Below are positions 8,741-16,464 of a stretch of DNA of 34,254 nt, piece by piece. A model generated the notes under the pieces. The model was not told where the DNA came from. It saw nothing but the letters and a program-made list of their open reading frames with translations, and searched no databases. Position 1 is the stretch's first letter. Each line of letters starts with the position of its first letter. The stretch is from an uncultured Clostridia bacterium (GTDB lineage Bacteria; Bacillota; Clostridia; Oscillospirales; Acutalibacteraceae). The position numbers were made by a program, and so were the translations under genes. The stretch lies in contig CALWIW010000024.1 in assembly GCA_944380855.1 (NCBI GenBank), positions 1 through 34,254 on the forward strand, written 5' to 3'.

Positions 8741-11700
8741 GTGAAAACGAACTACTTGAAAAAGTGTATTTCCGTACTTCTTTCCATTTCTATGCTTGCG
8801 TCATTGTTTGCTGTATCTTTTACGGCATCAGCGGAAGAAGTTTTGGTTGTTGACGGAAAAAGTTACCAAAAAGGAGATATTGTTGAGCTTAAGGGTGACT
8901 TGCAAATTAACAATTGGCTGATGAACGGACAGGTTGAAATACCATACGATTCTACAAAGCTTCAATTGGTTGACGGACAAACCGAAGAAACTATTTTCCC
9001 CGCACTTTCTGAGCAAAACATTAAGGTTTTCTATAATGATATTGCCGCAGAAAACGTATTCCTTTTTAACTTTTCAAATCCAACCGTTGGTATTGATTTT
9101 ACCGAAAGCAAAACTCTTTACAGCCTGAAGTTTGAAGTAATAGGTACAGGCGATATAAAGTTAGCTGATAATGTAAAAATAGTTGATATGAAATCCTATG
9201 CTTTTGAAGGAAGCCCTGAAGGACAGGATAACTTCGAAATGGTTTCTGTTATTGACGAAAACGGTGCTATTCTTGAAGGCAAAGGAACTGTTACAAATGT
9301 TTCACAGCCAATGGGTCCTGTTGAAGAAACCTTGACAGTTGACGGAAAAACCTACAACATCGATGATACTTTTACTTTTGCAGGTGATCTTCAGGTTAAC
9401 AGATGGGTTATGAATACACAAATTGAGCTTAATTACGATAATACTAAGCTTGAGATTGTTGATACAGTATATCCCGTACTTGAAAAAGCAGGAATAAAGG
9501 TTTATGAGAATTACATAAACGATGAAGGCTGGTATAGCTTTAACTTTTCTGATGTAAGCAATGGTGTTGATTTTACTGAGAAAGGTGAGTTGTACGTTGT
9601 TACATTTAAAGTAGTAGGAAACGGAACAACAACTCTCAACGACAAAATTAATATAATTGAAATGTCAGAGTTCCCGTTTGACGGTTCACCCGCCGAAAAT
9701 CCGGGTGCAGAGCTTATACCGGTAGATATCACAGATGGTAATGGTGGTTTCAACGGAGATAAGGGTTCTTTCGAGAATTCTATAAAAGAAGAAGTTGCTG
9801 AGAAAACACTTACTGTTGATGGCAAAACTTACAATGTAGGTGAGAAATTTACTTTAGTTGGTCAGCTTCAGGCAAACAGATGGCTTATCAATGCACAGTT
9901 TAATCTTGATTTTGATAACACCAAGATTAAGATAGTGGATACTGCTTATCCTGTTTTGGAGGAAGCAGGTATATCGGCAGTTGAAAATTACAACAACGAC
10001 GAGGGTTGGTATACATTTAACTTTACAGATGTTGAAAACGGTGCAGACTTTACTTCAGTGGCAAATCTTTACGAGGTTACATTTGAGGTTATAGACGGCG
10101 GTACAACAACTTTGGCAGATAAGGCTGCTTTTGATGTTATCTGCACATTCCCGTTTGCCGGTTCTCCTGCAGTAAATCCGGGTGCAGAAATAGAAATGGT
10201 GGATATTTCTGACGGTAACGGCGGAATTAAAGAAGGTGAAGGTAAAGTAGAACATATTATCGATCCTGAACCTCCTGTAGTTGATACCTTAGTTGTAGAC
10301 GGTCATTTGTACAAGCTTGGTGATACTGTAAGATTTAACATTGATCTTCAAGCCTATAATTGGATTATGAACGGTCAGTATACACTGAATTTTGATAATA
10401 CAAAGCTTCAGCTTAAATCCGCATATTATCCTGTTCTTGAGGAAGCAGGAATTAATGTAGTTGAAAACATAAACAACGAAGATGGATTCTATACATTTAA
10501 TTTCCTGGATATTGAAAAGGGTGTAGATTTCACAACCAAGAACGTATTGGTTGCAATGGAGTTTAAGGTAATCGGTACAGGAGAAGCAATGCTTGACAAA
10601 AACTCTGTTATTGATGCTTTGAGTACATTTGATTTTGAGGGTTCACCGGCAGATCCTGAAAATGAAGGAAAGCCTATAAATATGGTAGATATTACTGAAG
10701 GCTTGAACGGTGTAAATCCTGAATACGGTGAATTGGAATACTATCAGGGAAAACCTAATATTATAGAAAAATTCACTGTTAACGGACAAGAAGTAAAAGC
10801 CGGAGATATCGTAGAATATCGTGTATGGGTTAAAAATGATAAGTATTGGCTTGTAAACTCAGAATTTGATATTCTTTACACAAATCATTATCTTGATCTT
10901 ATAGAAGTTACATATCCCGGACTTGAGAGTATTGCAGGATATGTTGTAGATAATAATATTGTTGACTCCGGATTGCTTGAGTCACAGGGCAAAACAGCAG
11001 GCGAATTTTTGTTCAATTTCACAAATATCCATTCAGGTGTTGACTTTACACAGGGTGCATATATGGCTGTACTTAAATTTAAGGTACATGAGTCCACAAA
11101 TCCTGAAATACCTGCAACAGGAGCTTCCGTAATTGAACTTAACAATAACGTTGTTAATGACATGAATGTATTCCCGTTTGAGGGCTCAGGTGCTTCACAC
11201 GATATAGAGGATAAGAGAGATCTCGTAAATGTTATTGGTGAAGATGGTTTGCCCACAACTGATGAATTCAGACTTGAAACAGAAGTAATCAGCGAAGTTA
11301 CCCTTGATTGGGAAGCTTTGCAGGAAGCTTATGATAAGTGGGCAGCATTCGATACAGACGGTTACACAGCTGAATCTGTAGCAGCTCTTCAAGAGGCTCT
11401 TACTGAAACAAAGAAAATGCTTGATGATTTCAATGCAGGAAACTTTGACGGTTATACTCAGGATATGATTGACCAGCAGCTTGAAAAACTTAATGCAGCA
11501 GGCGAAGCACTTGTTGTTGATAAATCACAGTTGAAAGCATTGATTGATGATGCTAAAGCAATTCTTGAGGATAAGGATACACTTTATGTACCTGAAACAA
11601 TCGAGGCTCTCAAAGAGGCTGTTGATAAGGCACAAGCGGTTGTAAATAACGAGAATGCTACAGTTCAAGAGGTAAAAGACGAGATAGAAGCACTTCAGAA

Positions 11701-11947
11701 GGCTATTGACGGAGTTAAGAAGGGTGCTTATCTCGGAGATGTTAATTATGATGGCAGAATAACCATTGTTGACGCAACATATATCCAGCTTTTTGCGGCA
11801 GAAATAGAGACTCCGGAAAAATTCTATGAAGAACTTGCAGATGTTGACAAAGACGGCAAAATAAATATCTTAGATGCAACAGAGATTCAAAAGATTTTAG
11901 CATTATATATGCCTTGGGAGATAGTTGAGATACCTGCAGGAGTTTAA
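8741..11947 (+). CDS. Secreted five-module cohesin-like scaffold with dockerin
   Basis: Start is GTG after TGGAGG at 8-base spacing. The protein has 1068 residues: a signal peptide (1-31), then five related beta modules at about 33-185, 196-348, 354-507, 514-668 and 676-850. Each shows a hydrophobic strand with W-x-[MIV]-N, then [YF]D-x-TK[LI], and later FNF followed by G-x-DFT. The YDxTKL pattern and length of about 155 residues are like cohesins of cellulosome scaffolds. Two FIVAR-like helical segments follow (about 855-996), then a type I dockerin (997-1055; loops DVNYDGRITIVD and DVDKDGKINILD). Several cohesin-like modules plus a dockerin on one chain is the plan of an adaptor scaffoldin. 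No carbohydrate-binding or catalytic domain is visible. The modules are divergent, so cohesin activity is inference. Confidence 0.83.
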   Translation: MKTNYLKKCISVLLSISMLASLFAVSFTASAEEVLVVDGKSYQKGDIVELKGDLQINNWLMNGQVEIPYDSTKLQLVDGQTEETIFPALSEQNIKVFYNDIAAENVFLFNFSNPTVGIDFTESKTLYSLKFEVIGTGDIKLADNVKIVDMKSYAFEGSPEGQDNFEMVSVIDENGAILEGKGTVTNVSQPMGPVEETLTVDGKTYNIDDTFTFAGDLQVNRWVMNTQIELNYDNTKLEIVDTVYPVLEKAGIKVYENYINDEGWYSFNFSDVSNGVDFTEKGELYVVTFKVVGNGTTTLNDKINIIEMSEFPFDGSPAENPGAELIPVDITDGNGGFNGDKGSFENSIKEEVAEKTLTVDGKTYNVGEKFTLVGQLQANRWLINAQFNLDFDNTKIKIVDTAYPVLEEAGISAVENYNNDEGWYTFNFTDVENGADFTSVANLYEVTFEVIDGGTTTLADKAAFDVICTFPFAGSPAVNPGAEIEMVDISDGNGGIKEGEGKVEHIIDPEPPVVDTLVVDGHLYKLGDTVRFNIDLQAYNWIMNGQYTLNFDNTKLQLKSAYYPVLEEAGINVVENINNEDGFYTFNFLDIEKGVDFTTKNVLVAMEFKVIGTGEAMLDKNSVIDALSTFDFEGSPADPENEGKPINMVDITEGLNGVNPEYGELEYYQGKPNIIEKFTVNGQEVKAGDIVEYRVWVKNDKYWLVNSEFDILYTNHYLDLIEVTYPGLESIAGYVVDNNIVDSGLLESQGKTAGEFLFNFTNIHSGVDFTQGAYMAVLKFKVHESTNPEIPATGASVIELNNNVVNDMNVFPFEGSGASHDIEDKRDLVNVIGEDGLPTTDEFRLETEVISEVTLDWEALQEAYDKWAAFDTDGYTAESVAALQEALTETKKMLDDFNAGNFDGYTQDMIDQQLEKLNAAGEALVVDKSQLKALIDDAKAILEDKDTLYVPETIEALKEAVDKAQAVVNNENATVQEVKDEIEALQKAIDGVKKGAYLGDVNYDGRITIVDATYIQLFAAEIETPEKFYEELADVDKDGKINILDATEIQKILALYMPWEIVEIPAGV

Positions 11948-12274: not shown

Positions 12275-13204
12275 GTGAGATATTGTAAAAAAATATCCTC
12301 TTTTGCGTCTGTTTTTTTACTTGTATCCATAATTTGTCAGCTTAATGTAAATGCGGAGACATATTTTGCCAGTGAGGATTTTAAATACACATACAGATAT
12401 GACGGCACAATATCTGTAGCGGGATATCTGGGCACATCTTCAAACCTTAATATTCCCGATACTATTTCCGGAGAGAACGTTACCGAAATATCATGGAACG
12501 CATTTAACGGCAACAAGTCCATTGAGAGTGTTAGTTTTCCCGATACATTAAAGATTATCGGTGACAGTTCTTTTGCTAATTGTATCAGCCTTAAAAGTAT
12601 TGTAATACCGTATTCCGTTACAAAGATAGGAGCGAATGCTTTTTACAGCTGTACGGCTGCGTCTGTTATTGAGATAAAAGGGAATTTGGAGTCTGTAGAG
12701 AAATATTCTTTTAACAGATGCAGTTCTGTAAAAGAAATTGTTTTGCCCGAAACAGTAAAATCCTTCGGAGATTATGCTTTTTATGGGTGTAGTTCATTAG
12801 AGTATATATATATTCCCCCTTCAACAACATACATTGAAAAACACGCTTTTGACGAGTGCGGTAAGCTTGTAATTTACGGATACAGCGGTTCCTATGCTGA
12901 AGTGTACGCAGGTGAAAAAAATATAGACTTTGTTTCTGTAGGAGAAGTTGAAAGCCAAAGGTTTTCCGAAAACAAAATAAACAGTGTTCAGGGAAGCTAT
13001 AATAAATTTGAAAACAATAATGCTTGGGATTTAAACAGCGACGGTATAGTTAATAATTTGGATTTTAAAGTGCTGTGTCAATTTTTAGTTAAAACCAAAA
13101 ATTGTTTTTTTGGAGAAAGTAATTACGATTTTAACGGTGACAGGAAATTTAACATAGCTGATGTTACCTGTTTGCAGATAAAAATATCTGTTATTTCTGT
13201 CTGA
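12275..13204 (+). CDS. Secreted BspA-type leucine-rich-repeat protein with dockerin
   Basis: Start is GTG after AAGGGGG. The 309-residue protein has a signal peptide (about 1-27, ending in VNA). Residues about 60-205 are BspA-like (LRR_5) repeats of about 23 residues with the pattern I-x-x-x-A-F-x-x-C-x-S-L-x-x-I-x-I-P; for example FANCISLKSIVIPYSVTKIG and FYGCSSLEYIYIPPSTTYIE. Residues about 248-307 are a dockerin-like pair of calcium loops (DLNSDGIVNNLD and DFNGDRKFNIAD). BspA repeats generally mediate protein or surface binding. It is the third dockerin protein in a row, each with its own start signals and apparently its own transcript. Its repeats show no enzyme motif. Confidence 0.87.
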   Translation: MRYCKKISSFASVFLLVSIICQLNVNAETYFASEDFKYTYRYDGTISVAGYLGTSSNLNIPDTISGENVTEISWNAFNGNKSIESVSFPDTLKIIGDSSFANCISLKSIVIPYSVTKIGANAFYSCTAASVIEIKGNLESVEKYSFNRCSSVKEIVLPETVKSFGDYAFYGCSSLEYIYIPPSTTYIEKHAFDECGKLVIYGYSGSYAEVYAGEKNIDFVSVGEVESQRFSENKINSVQGSYNKFENNNAWDLNSDGIVNNLDFKVLCQFLVKTKNCFFGESNYDFNGDRKFNIADVTCLQIKISVISV

Positions 13205-13224: not shown

Positions 13225-13253
13225 TTGACAATCATTATATATAAGCATATAAT
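13225..13253 (+). promoter_or_regulatory. Promoter of the trp transport operon
   Basis: A perfect TTGACA (13225-13230), a 17-base spacer and a perfect TATAAT (13248-13253), placed just ahead of the T-box leader. Confidence 0.85.
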
Positions 13254-13283
13254 ATATACAGTTATTAATTTAATATGTTAAAC

Positions 13284-13536
13284 CATTGATGAGGAGATAA
13301 CGCTGTATACGAACTCACAGAGAGTCTCAGGTGCTGGGATTGAGACAGGAAACGGTATTGCAAATGGACCTCGGAGGGTGCGGGGGAATTTAGTATCCCG
13401 CAACGTGTTCTCACGTTACAGAGATAGAATGTGTTGGCATTCGATGAGTGGGCATTTTGTCAAACAAGGTGGCACCGCAGATATTTTGCATTATCTGTCC
13501 TTGGGTTATATTTATAACCTGAGGGCTTTTTTATTT
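13284..13536 (+). promoter_or_regulatory. T-box riboswitch, probable tryptophan specificity
   Basis: The T-box element AAGGTGGCACCGC (13466-13478) is nearly consensus. Its first bases AAGG can pair with CCTT (13499-13502) to build the antiterminator; the alternative is the hairpin at about 13497-13527 followed by CTTTTTT. Stem I starts with GATGAGGAGATAACG, where GAGG (13291-13294) pairs with CCTC (13369-13372). The 3' specifier loop reads AAATGGA (13362-13368), giving UGG followed by the usual purine; UGG is the Trp codon. Uncharged tRNA-Trp should therefore promote readthrough into the ABC transporter genes, which fits the known Trp T-box control of trpXYZ in Firmicutes. The T-box call is firm; the specifier is read from pairing by hand. 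Confidence 0.92.
13497..13535 (+). terminator. T-box-controlled terminator
   Basis: GTCCTTGGGTTATA pairs with TATAACCTGAGGGC through Watson-Crick and G-T pairs, and a T run follows. Its 5' arm overlaps the bases used by the antiterminator. Confidence 0.8.
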
Positions 13537-13555
13537 TAGAAAAAGGGTGATAATT

Positions 13556-13591
13556 ATGATATTACTTAAAGAGCGATGGCGTATTTTGTAA
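13556..13591 (+). CDS. Possible 11-residue leader peptide with a Trp codon
   Basis: After the T-box terminator, AAAGGGTGATAATT precedes an ATG at good spacing, and the frame reads MILLKERWRIL then TAA. The single Trp codon is at 13577-13579. Immediately after it, the rest of the frame through the stop codon (13580-13591) is one arm of a 12-bp hairpin whose other arm (13618-13629) abuts the ribosome site of trpX. A ribosome waiting at the Trp codon would cover and open that hairpin. Layout is reminiscent of the Bacillus subtilis rtpA leader, where a T-box and a Trp-rich leader peptide act in series. Translation is inferred, not shown. Confidence 0.45.
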   Translation: MILLKERWRIL

Positions 13592-13629
13592 CGGAACTGA
13601 ATCAGAATAGAATAACATTACGAAATACG
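13580..13629 (+). promoter_or_regulatory. Hairpin joining the leader frame and trpX ribosome site
   Basis: CGTATTTTGTAA (13580-13591) pairs with TTACGAAATACG (13618-13629), eleven Watson-Crick pairs plus one G-T pair, with a 26-base loop. The 3' arm ends directly before AAAGG (13630-13634), the probable trpX ribosome site. There is no T run, so this is not a terminator. Confidence 0.6.
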
Positions 13630-13645
13630 AAAGGTTGATTTATAT

Positions 13646-14650
13646 ATGAAAAAGTTTATTGTAACGATTTTATCAGTTTTAATGTGTACATCAATTTTTG
13701 CAGGCTGCGGTTCAAATGATATCGGTGATAAAGGTTCAGATACAGCTCAGGGTGATAAAGCAAAAATAGGTATTATAAAAATAGTAGAGCACCCGTCTCT
13801 GAATACAATTGAAGAATCAATTGTAACAAGACTTGAGGAGTTGGGATATAAGGACGGAGAAAATGCGGAAATTTCCTGTATGTCCGCACAAAATGACCCG
13901 ACAACTATTCCTCTTATGATGGATAAATTTGTGGCAGACGGTTGCGATATTGTAGTTGCCATATCGACACCGGTGGCAACAGCGGCTATGAATTATGCAG
14001 AACAAATACCTATTGTATTTTCTGCTGTTTCTGACCCGGTAGCCGCAAACCTTACAACAACTCTTGAAAATCCTGATAAAAATGTTACAGGTACCTGCGA
14101 CAGCGTTCCGGTAGATAAAATCATTGACATGGCGTTGAAGCTTACTCCTGATATAAAAACTTTCGGATTTATTTATAATTCCGGCGAGGACAGCTCTGTT
14201 GCAAATATTGAGAGAGCAAAACAGTATTGTGAGGAAAAAGGTCTTAGCTATGTTGAAGCCAATGTTGAAAACAGTACGGCTATACAGCAGGCGGCAGAAT
14301 CATTGGTGACAAAGTGTGACGCAATATTTACACCTACCGACAATACAGTTGCTGAAGGTATGAGCGTGCTTTCTCAGATTTGTAAGGATGCAAAAATACC
14401 ATGCTATGTGGGTGCGGATTCAATGGTTATGGACGGAGGCTTTGCTTCTATCGGAATTACTTATGAAGAATTGGGAATTGAAACGGCAAATATGGTGGAT
14501 AAGGTTCTCAAAGGTACAAAGGTTTCCGATATTCCTGTTATGGTATTTGAGGATTTGTTCACATATATAAATACCACAACAGCAGACGCAATCGGTGTTG
14601 AAGTTAAGGAAGACGTTCTGAACAACGAAAAAACCGTTATTTTTGAATAA
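13646..14650 (+). CDS. trpX: ABC transporter substrate-binding lipoprotein, TrpX-type
   Basis: This 334-residue protein begins with a lipoprotein signal whose lipobox is SIFAGC, with the lipidated cysteine at residue 21, so it should be anchored outside the membrane. The remainder matches the ABC_sub_bind (PF04392) family: an N-lobe starting KIGIIKIVEHPSLNTIEES, MDKFVADGCDIVVAISTPVA, and the C-lobe segment KTFGFIYNSGEDSSVANIE. Together with the downstream permease and ATPase it forms a complete importer. Tryptophan is inferred as the substrate from the UGG T-box upstream and from the known trpXYZ group; the sequence of the binding pocket alone would not show it. Confidence 0.85.
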   Translation: MKKFIVTILSVLMCTSIFAGCGSNDIGDKGSDTAQGDKAKIGIIKIVEHPSLNTIEESIVTRLEELGYKDGENAEISCMSAQNDPTTIPLMMDKFVADGCDIVVAISTPVATAAMNYAEQIPIVFSAVSDPVAANLTTTLENPDKNVTGTCDSVPVDKIIDMALKLTPDIKTFGFIYNSGEDSSVANIERAKQYCEEKGLSYVEANVENSTAIQQAAESLVTKCDAIFTPTDNTVAEGMSVLSQICKDAKIPCYVGADSMVMDGGFASIGITYEELGIETANMVDKVLKGTKVSDIPVMVFEDLFTYINTTTADAIGVEVKEDVLNNEKTVIFE

Positions 14651-14743
14651 GAAAATAATAAGAGTCCCGCCGGAAAAACAATTCTGCTTTTTCCGGCGGT
14701 AACATATAGGGGTAATCCTGTATTAAATTGAGAGGTGTTTCTT

Positions 14744-15682
14744 TTGCAGTATTTGACTTTGGGACTCGGCTCTATAGAGCAGGGACTTATTTACGCAATT
14801 CTTGCTTTGGGAGTTTTTGTATCGCTTAGAGTGCTTGATATTCCGGACTTGACGGTTGACGGCTCTTTTGTAACAGGAGCGGCTGTATCTGTTATGTTCA
14901 CACAGCTTCAGGAGCCCTTAGGCGGAGGTATTCTTTTTCCGGTTCTTTCATTGATTATGGCATTTTTGGCAGGTGCAATAACAGGAATAATAACCGGTTT
15001 GCTTCACACAAGGCTTAAAGTGCCTGCACTTTTGGCGGGAATACTTACAATGACAGGCCTTTATTCAATAAATCTCATTATAATGGGGGACAAACCGACG
15101 GTTTCCATAAACGGCATGAACAACATATTTACACCGTTCATGGATATGGTAGGTTCAGACGCAGTTTCGAGAAAACTGGCAATCATACCTGTAATTCTTG
15201 TGGTACTGCTTATTACAACCCTTGCACTTGTATGGTTTTTGCGTACGCAAAAAGGTATGGCTTTGCGTGCCACAGGCGATAATGAAGAAATGGTAAAGGC
15301 AAGCTCTATTAATGCGGACAATATGAAGGTTTTGGGTCTTGCTGTGGCAAACGGTATTGTTGCCTTGTCGGGAGCTGTTCTTGCTCAGGATCAGAATTTT
15401 GCGGACGCCAAGTCAGGCGTGGGAACGGTTGTTGTGGGAATTGCCTCTATAATTATCGGTGAAACAATTTTCGGCAAGCGTTCAATTATCAATAATATTG
15501 TTTCTGCAATTCTCGGAGCAATAGTATACAGAATTTTCATTTCTATAGTTCTTCAGCTGGGTCTGCCGGCATCTTACTTTAAGCTTTTATCAGCTTTAAT
15601 TGTGGTTATTGCAATTTGTGTACAGGTTACAGGTGAAAAGATTGCAAGAAAAAAAGTAAGGAGGGCAAATAAAAAATGTTAA
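14744..15682 (+). CDS. trpY: ABC transporter permease, TrpY-type
   Basis: This is a BPD_transp_2-type membrane permease of about 312 residues with eight or more hydrophobic segments. LGVFVSLRVLDIPDLTVDGS near the N-terminus is typical of this subfamily, as is the RTQKGMALRATGDNEEMVKA cytoplasmic coupling segment. I choose TTG at 14744, eight bases after AGAGG, over the in-frame GTG at 14735 that lies inside the ribosome site. The last seven bases overlap the start of the ATPase gene, indicating translational coupling. Substrate inference follows the T-box and trpX. Confidence 0.88.
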   Translation: MQYLTLGLGSIEQGLIYAILALGVFVSLRVLDIPDLTVDGSFVTGAAVSVMFTQLQEPLGGGILFPVLSLIMAFLAGAITGIITGLLHTRLKVPALLAGILTMTGLYSINLIIMGDKPTVSINGMNNIFTPFMDMVGSDAVSRKLAIIPVILVVLLITTLALVWFLRTQKGMALRATGDNEEMVKASSINADNMKVLGLAVANGIVALSGAVLAQDQNFADAKSGVGTVVVGIASIIIGETIFGKRSIINNIVSAILGAIVYRIFISIVLQLGLPASYFKLLSALIVVIAICVQVTGEKIARKKVRRANKKC

Positions 15683-16464
15683 CTCTTGAAAATATTTATC
15701 TTACATTCAATCCCAATACTGCCAACGAAAAGGTTGCCTTGAACGGTGTTTCATTACAGCTTGAAAAAGGTGATTTTGTAACCGTCATAGGAAGCAACGG
15801 TGCGGGAAAATCCACAATGCTTAACGCTGTTGCCGGAACATATATGACTGACAGCGGAAAGATATCACTTGACGGTGAAGACATAACAAATATGCCCAAT
15901 CATAAAAGAGCCAAACACATGGGCAGGCTTTTTCAGGACCCATTAAAGGGAACGGCTCCCAACATGACTATAGAAGAAAATCTGGCACTTTCCTACGGAC
16001 GAGGCACACGGAGAGGATTCGGTATCGGAGTAAGAAAGAGCGATGAAAAGTTTTACAAAGAAACATTGAGCAGGCTCGGACTGGGACTTGAGGACAGACT
16101 TAAAACGAAGGTTGGACTGCTTTCCGGCGGACAGAGACAGGCACTTACACTGCTTATGGCAACAATAGTAACGCCGAAACTACTTTTGCTGGACGAGCAT
16201 ACAGCGGCACTTGACCCTGTTACGGCTAAAAAGGTCATGGATTTAACAAACAGTATAGTAGCCGAAAACAATATCACGACCTTGATGGTTACACACAACA
16301 TTTCAGACGCATTGAATACGGGAAATAAAACAATTTTGATGTCAGGCGGAAAAATAGTTCTGGTTTTAGAGGGAGAAGAGAGAAAAAATATGACCGTTGA
16401 AAAGCTTATGAAGCTTTATTCCGATACGGCAAACGACGCTTTTTCCGATAAAATGATTCTTTAA
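15676..16464 (+). CDS. trpZ: ABC transporter ATP-binding protein, TrpZ-type
   Basis: This ATPase (262 residues) powers the importer. Walker A is GSNGAGKST (about 39-47), the Q-loop is in LFQDPLKG, the signature motif is LSGGQRQ, Walker B is LLLLDEHTAALDP and the switch histidine lies in LMVTHN. The start overlaps trpY, and a ribosome site GGAGGG lies within the trpY end. It closes the operon before the terminator at 16483. Confidence 0.93.
   Translation: MLTLENIYLTFNPNTANEKVALNGVSLQLEKGDFVTVIGSNGAGKSTMLNAVAGTYMTDSGKISLDGEDITNMPNHKRAKHMGRLFQDPLKGTAPNMTIEENLALSYGRGTRRGFGIGVRKSDEKFYKETLSRLGLGLEDRLKTKVGLLSGGQRQALTLLMATIVTPKLLLLDEHTAALDPVTAKKVMDLTNSIVAENNITTLMVTHNISDALNTGNKTILMSGGKIVLVLEGEERKNMTVEKLMKLYSDTANDAFSDKMIL

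Follow-up and report, generated by a model that had tools for sequence, protein, structure and literature searches.

The trpX-like transporter gene described here very probably carries two tryptophan-responsive elements in series upstream of it, a T-box and, behind the T-box, a conserved leader-peptide frame with a Trp codon. The locus lies in what we call the window, the whole stretch of 34,254 nucleotides analysed, from an uncultured Clostridia bacterium of the Acutalibacteraceae (GCA_944380855.1, contig CALWIW010000024.1). We propose that the two elements act at successive steps, with the T-box likely to control transcription and the leader peptide then controlling translation of trpX. Judged from the sequences, the leader would probably increase translation of trpX under a shortage of Trp-tRNA. 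The comparison below supports a recurrent Trp frame, a (K/R)-CGA-UGG core in one class of leaders (the RW class) and, in many relatives, a covarying pairing between the segment after UGG and the trpX ribosome site; from these patterns we infer that the leader is translated, that ribosomes stall on its UGG, and the sign of the effect on trpX.

The features of the trpX locus all lie on the forward strand. A promoter-like TTGACA-17-TATAAT element at 13225–13253, identified by consensus match only, agrees with the consensus at 12 of 12 positions. It is followed by a T-box leader at 13277–13505, which a covariance-model search with RF00230 recovered at full length (model positions 1–219; 90.5 bits, E 2e-20). 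Because this score lies 2.5 bits below the Rfam gathering score of 93 bits for RF00230, the T-box is missed at that threshold. Reading the sequence by eye together with the Rfam alignment places a probable Trp specifier codon, UGG, at 13365–13367 within AAAUGGACC, an assignment suggested by its place in the specifier loop. The T-box bulge UGGC, read from the sequence, is at 13470–13473, and a terminator scan located the T-box terminator hairpin, followed by a T-run, at 13497–13526. A second transcription terminator was discarded, as the scan of the region gave the T-box terminator alone. Next comes the trpX-like gene for a substrate-binding lipoprotein (13646–14650), whose Shine-Dalgarno sequence AAAGG was read at 13630–13634, and then, from the ORF list and profile matches, an ABC permease in the trpY position (14735–15682) and an ABC ATPase in the trpZ position (15676–16464). 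The lipoprotein scores 293.7 bits against NF041285 (ABC_SBP_TrpX; E 1.5e-87), short of the 390-bit equivalog cut-off, and two profile searches gave no match above this cut-off in any of 391 and 294 genomes, respectively; the T-box and the operon layout still point to tryptophan. Upstream of the locus, the window encodes two secreted-looking proteins, at 8741–11947 and 12275–13204. The first contains internal similar repeats (LTVDGKTYNVG-like), the second has a match to a model of leucine-rich-repeat adhesins, and we take the C-terminal sequence of both to be dockerin-like.

Between the T-box and trpX, a sequence-only reading of the window had claimed an 11-codon frame with a good ribosome site and a single Trp codon right before a 12-bp hairpin, the left arm being the remainder of the frame and the right arm abutting the trpX ribosome site. 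Direct reading confirmed this arrangement. The frame, MILLKERWRIL, occupies 13556–13591 (ATG 13556–13558, stop 13589–13591), and its Shine-Dalgarno sequence AAGGG (13543–13547) was read 8 nt before the ATG. The codons after ATG are ATA TTA CTT AAA GAG CGA TGG CGT ATT TTG TAA, with the single Trp codon at 13577–13579; the CGA-TGG codon pair (Arg-Trp, 13574–13579) is the most conserved element among RW-class leaders. The left arm CGTATTTTGTAA (13580–13591) runs from the nucleotide following TGG through the stop codon, the right arm is TTACGAAATACG (13618–13629), and the arms form 12 bp, one of them G-U. The trpX Shine-Dalgarno sequence is outside this hairpin, directly 3' of the right arm, and folding predicts a pairing between leader codons 2–4 and the ribosome site of the leader itself. 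A 55-nt segment chosen around the hairpin folds at –11.2 kcal/mol, and none of 200 shuffles was as stable (z –4.4); longer stretches fold less strikingly (108 nt, z –2.5, 3/200; 120 nt, z –2.0, 9/200). Since 15 of 200 shuffled versions of this spacer also contain a Trp mini-ORF, the frame is not improbable alone, and the case rests on comparison across species. The 108-bp stretch matches once in its own genome (an assembly 86% complete), and we set aside the idea of a mobile repeat.

The closest relative is Anaeromassilibacillus sp. An172 (Acutalibacteraceae; locus L002, the same contig as G106), with a TrpX 84% identical to that of the window and the only other genome of the window's genus among the genomes compared. 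At the corresponding position, L002 reads MILLKERWRIS. From codon 2 through the one that follows Trp, it shares six codons with the window; the two changes there are synonymous and none is non-synonymous, while the last codon of the frame differs. By eye, eight pairs of the 12-bp helix are unchanged, two are changed on one side yet still pair, one is changed on both sides from G-C to A-U, and one is broken. Farther away, in a genus at 73–75% TrpX identity, a close TrpX is absent from four of six genomes. One of its members (G235, locus L028) has MKLYTKRWRGCICFPRRIKN behind a ribosome site and no such hairpin, and another (G030, locus L027) has kept the T-box and trpX together with a mini-ORF, MMAEYY, that lacks Trp. 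The conservation of homologous leaders that had been put forward as a check holds in part: the frame and its Trp codon are kept in L002, whereas L027 is without the Trp codon and L028 without the hairpin. The leader region of L027 offers a natural contrast to that of the window.

A wider survey comprised 147 loci after removal of duplicates, among which 94 had a T-box motif, picked by text motif and not by covariance model, upstream of trpX or a trpX-like gene. Mini-ORFs in the spacer between T-box and trpX were counted automatically with a ribosome-site rule. A Trp mini-ORF was present in 32 of the 94 loci, compared with a mean of 8.4 and a maximum of 14 in 200 shuffles, and one with the pattern [KR]x?RW in 21, compared with a mean of 0.2 and a maximum of 2 (200 shuffles). 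The distance from T-box to trpX is longer in loci with a W frame (median 157 vs 119 without). In the Erysipelotrichales, the order to which the genome of L012 (Thomasclavelia saccharogumia) belongs, we found 68 TrpX places in 67 of 294 genomes. A T-box motif precedes 66 of the 68, and 37 of these 66 have a Trp leader (the script flagged 38; L155 was dropped because it is trpX itself). The 29 T-box trpX loci of this order without a W leader chiefly have a less similar TrpX and also include L127–L131 (56–61%). Leader examples are MLLKRWCPSFL, MTTKRWCLIF, MKMKRWCNFFNS, MKLDKRWCRCN and MKRWRRCLN. Among the loci examined from the searches of 391 and 294 genomes, 9 of 30 in each had a T-box motif, and none of these 18 had a W mini-ORF. 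For comparison with other T-boxes, 38 control loci were taken (8 own, and 30 of 103 matches in six genomes), 34 of which were readable. Four of the 34 have a W mini-ORF, trpX itself among them, and the other three lack RW; with no RW frame in the readable controls besides that of trpX, a Trp leader as a general property of T-boxes was rejected.

Leaders were compiled by script and by hand, giving 39 (25 RW and 14 others, with D-W, E-W, RMW and similar cores); L133, L138 and L143 were recognised later and stand outside the statistics. L147 is ambiguous: MVRRWIKMIGN was used in the RW statistics, the alternative being MDKDDWKLTEA.., and it does not drive the RW results. In L146 and L147, a Trp frame (MDKDDW...) can be read in frame into trpX with no stop, and an N-terminal extension of TrpX or a fused leader is possible. 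The trpX gene of L011 has a stop one codon after the start codon, unlike the near-identical L012, either a lesion or a draft error.

The pairing of the post-TGG segment with the trpX ribosome site was assessed with a duplex test, in which the 18 nt after the first TGG were paired with the stretch, at most 32 nt long, that precedes the trpX start, in own and in swapped combinations. The set held 33 non-redundant leaders, from 34 with a stop at least 10 nt upstream of trpX. Own combinations averaged –6.55 kcal/mol and swapped ones –4.65 (z –6.2, 0/20,000 permutations), and the 25 RW leaders by themselves gave z –7.3 (0/20,000 permutations). The eight non-RW leaders showed no pairing signal (–3.09 own vs –4.27 swapped, z +1.9). 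As the leaders are related, the test was repeated in 40 draws, each taking a single leader from every one of 11 TrpX clusters (75% identity), with a median z of –3.5 (range –5.0 to –2.3), a median p of 0.0008 and a worst p of 0.016. L141, which is not of the RW class, had its trpX start misplaced in the 33-leader set and right in the clade-wise one. By eye, the leader pairs L119/L122 and L113/L115 each show one double compensatory helix change. The hairpin arms differ in register between leaders.

A stalled ribosome was modelled by forcing open the stretch that a ribosome on UGG would cover and then folding the RNA, a crude stand-in for the ribosome; L153 was grouped with the non-RW leaders in these models. 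Across 24 RW leaders, the mean predicted cost of opening the trpX Shine-Dalgarno sequence fell from 2.9 to 0.65 kcal/mol with the ribosome, and left-arm shuffles without a ribosome cost 1.35. This mean is driven by ten loci (L113–L116 and L118–L123), in which the hairpin starts just after TGG and contains the trpX Shine-Dalgarno sequence, and the cost drops from 4.4–8.1 to 0.07–1.65 kcal/mol. In five of the ten, none of 60 left-arm shuffles was as costly; for L116, L121 and L122, 12–25% were. The cost in the ten other leaders was unchanged at 1.0. When the entire 30S site was considered, stalling lowered the RW mean from 5.6 to 2.7 kcal/mol, with a gain above 2 kcal/mol in 13 of the 24 RW leaders and in none of the ten others, and a gain of at most 2 in the remaining 11 RW leaders. 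The 30S site of L002 went from 11.5 to 7.5 kcal/mol, 7% of left-arm shuffles being as costly. The window did less well: its 30S site cost 7.6 kcal/mol, a value reached by 17% of 40 left-arm shuffles, and dropped to 5.7 on stalling. For the window's Shine-Dalgarno sequence alone, the cost rose on stalling from 2.1 to 4.5 kcal/mol, the wrong direction.

The sequence-only reading had held that slow decoding of UGG opens the hairpin and so raises trpX translation. The models of ten relatives and the covariation across the set agree with this, but in the window the modelled effect is weak or reversed, and some leaders have no hairpin. Because the trpX Shine-Dalgarno sequence of the window lies outside its hairpin and the effect of stalling there is weak or reversed, the mechanism is best illustrated by the relatives. 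Opening of the hairpin would be a reasonable explanation for the window too, although a weaker one, and we put its chances at about even.

The two-step switch that we favour would work as follows. In the T-box step, uncharged tRNA-Trp lets transcription pass the terminator, and in the window it would allow readthrough of the T-box terminator described above. Ribosomes would then start on the mini-ORF just past the terminator. With ample Trp-tRNA, a ribosome would pass UGG, end within a few codons and leave, after which the post-UGG segment would fold with the region of the trpX ribosome site and hold down trpX translation. With Trp-tRNA short, the ribosome would wait on UGG and mask the left arm, and trpX would be translated. 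In the mixed, non-RW class, many frames stop at the trpX ribosome site or past it, and finishing ribosomes may therefore block that site sterically, as in the rtpA leader of Bacillus subtilis.

Steric control of this kind could also be the whole mechanism, without RNA refolding, if a finishing ribosome covers the trpX site, one waiting on UGG does not, and the hairpin is secondary. This would agree with the rtpA mechanism and with L011, L012, L014 and L015, where the hairpin is absent despite a conserved KRW/KQW core. The stops of the 14 non-RW leaders are divided: five lie 16–26 nt before the trpX start (L156, L010, L144, L148 and L016) and five beyond it (L008, L009, L132, L134 and L146), as steric blocking would have it, but the other four lie 33, 36, 82 and 90 nt before it. 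In the RW class the stop is 29–60 nt before the trpX start (54 nt in the window), a long distance for a terminating ribosome to span if it is to mask the Shine-Dalgarno sequence, and the strong covariation of the hairpin arms also speaks against a purely steric mechanism, which we consider unlikely.

Summed over 14 overlapping pairs of related leaders, the codons from the second up to the one that follows Trp show 12 synonymous and 20 non-synonymous differences, which places the constraint on (K/R)-R-W and its codons rather than on the peptide as a whole. A single Trp codon is present in the window and in most RW leaders, and some others have two. Of the 27 Arg codons that immediately precede TGG in the 39 leaders, 25 are CGA, one is CGC and one is CGG; without the ambiguous L147, CGA makes up 24 of 26. 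At other positions of RW leaders CGA accounts for 1 of 19 Arg codons, and in open frames of at least 150 codons at the same loci for 63 of 705. CGA-TGG is present in 10 of 11 clades, though related leaders are included in these counts. Most RW leaders continue after TGG with TGT or CGT, so that YGU is kept across Cys and Arg, which the hairpin explains incompletely.

Decoding of CGA through an inosine-adenine pair is inefficient, and classical leaders need several Trp codons for sensitivity. Tentatively, CGA-UGG could be a tuned sensor in which the I-A pair in the P site slows acceptance of Trp-tRNA, so that a single UGG suffices; we regard this idea as rather unlikely. If true, gut Bacillota would have a one-codon sensor of tRNA-Trp placed after a T-box, in two mechanical versions, one with an anti-Shine-Dalgarno hairpin and one with a steric block. 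CGA-TGG may instead be conserved through an RNA contact that needs CGAUGG.

Conservation reaches past the Trp codon to the residues that directly precede W (KRW, RMW), as would also be expected if the (K/R)-R-W motif caused a nascent-peptide arrest and sensed free tryptophan or a drug, and not the decoding rate of UGG. Arrest-type sensing of free tryptophan or of a drug is found in the TnaC and Erm leaders. Here, however, Arg is kept at the level of the codon (CGA in 25/27), Gln is tolerated in its place (L012) and the residues after W vary, and an arrest at high Trp would work against the T-box, all of which makes such sensing very improbable. We give least credence of all to an untranslated or incidental mini-ORF, with a hairpin that stabilises the mRNA or separates the trpX ribosome site from the T-box, for while the chance frequency of the window frame (15/200 shuffles), the position of the Shine-Dalgarno sequence outside the window hairpin and the variation of the peptides outside the core would all suit it, the purely synonymous changes in L002 up to the codon after Trp, the excess of RW frames over shuffles and the conserved CGA-TGG do not.

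We know of one gene, rtpA, in which the same tRNA is sensed by two RNA elements in series, and no second case emerged from the literature searched. The B. subtilis rtpA (anti-TRAP) leader was reportedly described by Chen and Yanofsky, in 2003 and 2004, as a T-box combined with a Trp leader peptide. It has three Trp codons, a steric mechanism and a stop near the downstream Shine-Dalgarno sequence. The likeness lies in a Trp T-box, then a short frame with Trp codons and a ribosome site, then the gene, with both layers, as proposed here, sensing the charging of tRNA-Trp. The gene that follows, however, is a Trp ABC transporter here and a TRAP antagonist in rtpA; the window and most RW leaders have one Trp codon against the three of rtpA; many of the leaders here pair with the Shine-Dalgarno sequence, whereas rtpA control is steric; and the window stop is 54 nt before the ATG and not near the Shine-Dalgarno sequence as in rtpA, a position that part of the non-RW class approaches. 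The comparison with rtpA drawn in the sequence-only reading, of two Trp sensors in series but before a transporter, is apt in outline. In translational attenuation leaders such as ermC, a stalled ribosome in a mini-ORF likewise frees the next Shine-Dalgarno sequence from a hairpin, but the signal is a drug and there is no T-box.

With rtpA as precedent, the tandem of T-box and Trp leader proposed here stands before a transporter, often with an anti-Shine-Dalgarno hairpin. One paper places anti-TRAP under a T-box and tRNA-dependent ribosome stalling (PMC11255114). For Streptococcus suis trpXYZ, T-box control of the terminator type is described, with a UGGC bulge as in the window and a UGG specifier, which is the probable one here; the text searched mentions no leader peptide, open reading frame or rtpA (PMC9382623). 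Trp T-boxes of ABC transporters are listed in PMC2494555. Histidine leader peptides in Firmicutes replace T-boxes (PMC2965389, PMC9413887). Those of the his attenuators, including Erysipelotrichales his operons, are amino-acid leader peptides from the same bacterial order as leaders here, but they have 3–5 consecutive His codons, are terminator-based and occur where T-boxes are absent, not in series with them (PMC9413887, PMC2965389). That some attenuators hide a ribosome site and do not use a terminator is stated in general terms in PMC9413887. The literature searched, which did not extend to most subscription papers, contained no account of a leader peptide placed between T-box and trpX. If the tandem is shared by relatives of Anaeromassilibacillus and by many Erysipelotrichales, the two-sensor arrangement would be a recurrent design. 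Natural loci with and without the leader allow a comparison that could show what the second sensor contributes beyond the T-box, and the nearly fixed CGA-UGG would let the influence of a codon pair on the sensing of starvation be tested cleanly.

Reuse of the leader before other genes was considered and rejected. The pattern AARCGATGGYGT had 21 matches in 16 genomes, compared with five for the reversed pattern, and 11 of the 21 are trpX leaders by their place. Of the other ten, nine lie inside open frames of at least 172 codons on one strand, and the tenth, L226, is by eye not leader-like. At L206, a mini-ORF with a Trp codon, MVSLVLMGWRDFFYRR, follows a T-box, either by chance or as another leader; the gene behind this T-box, which starts MKMIIVFKPKAKDEDLKRV, presumably encodes a protein resembling DAHP synthase.
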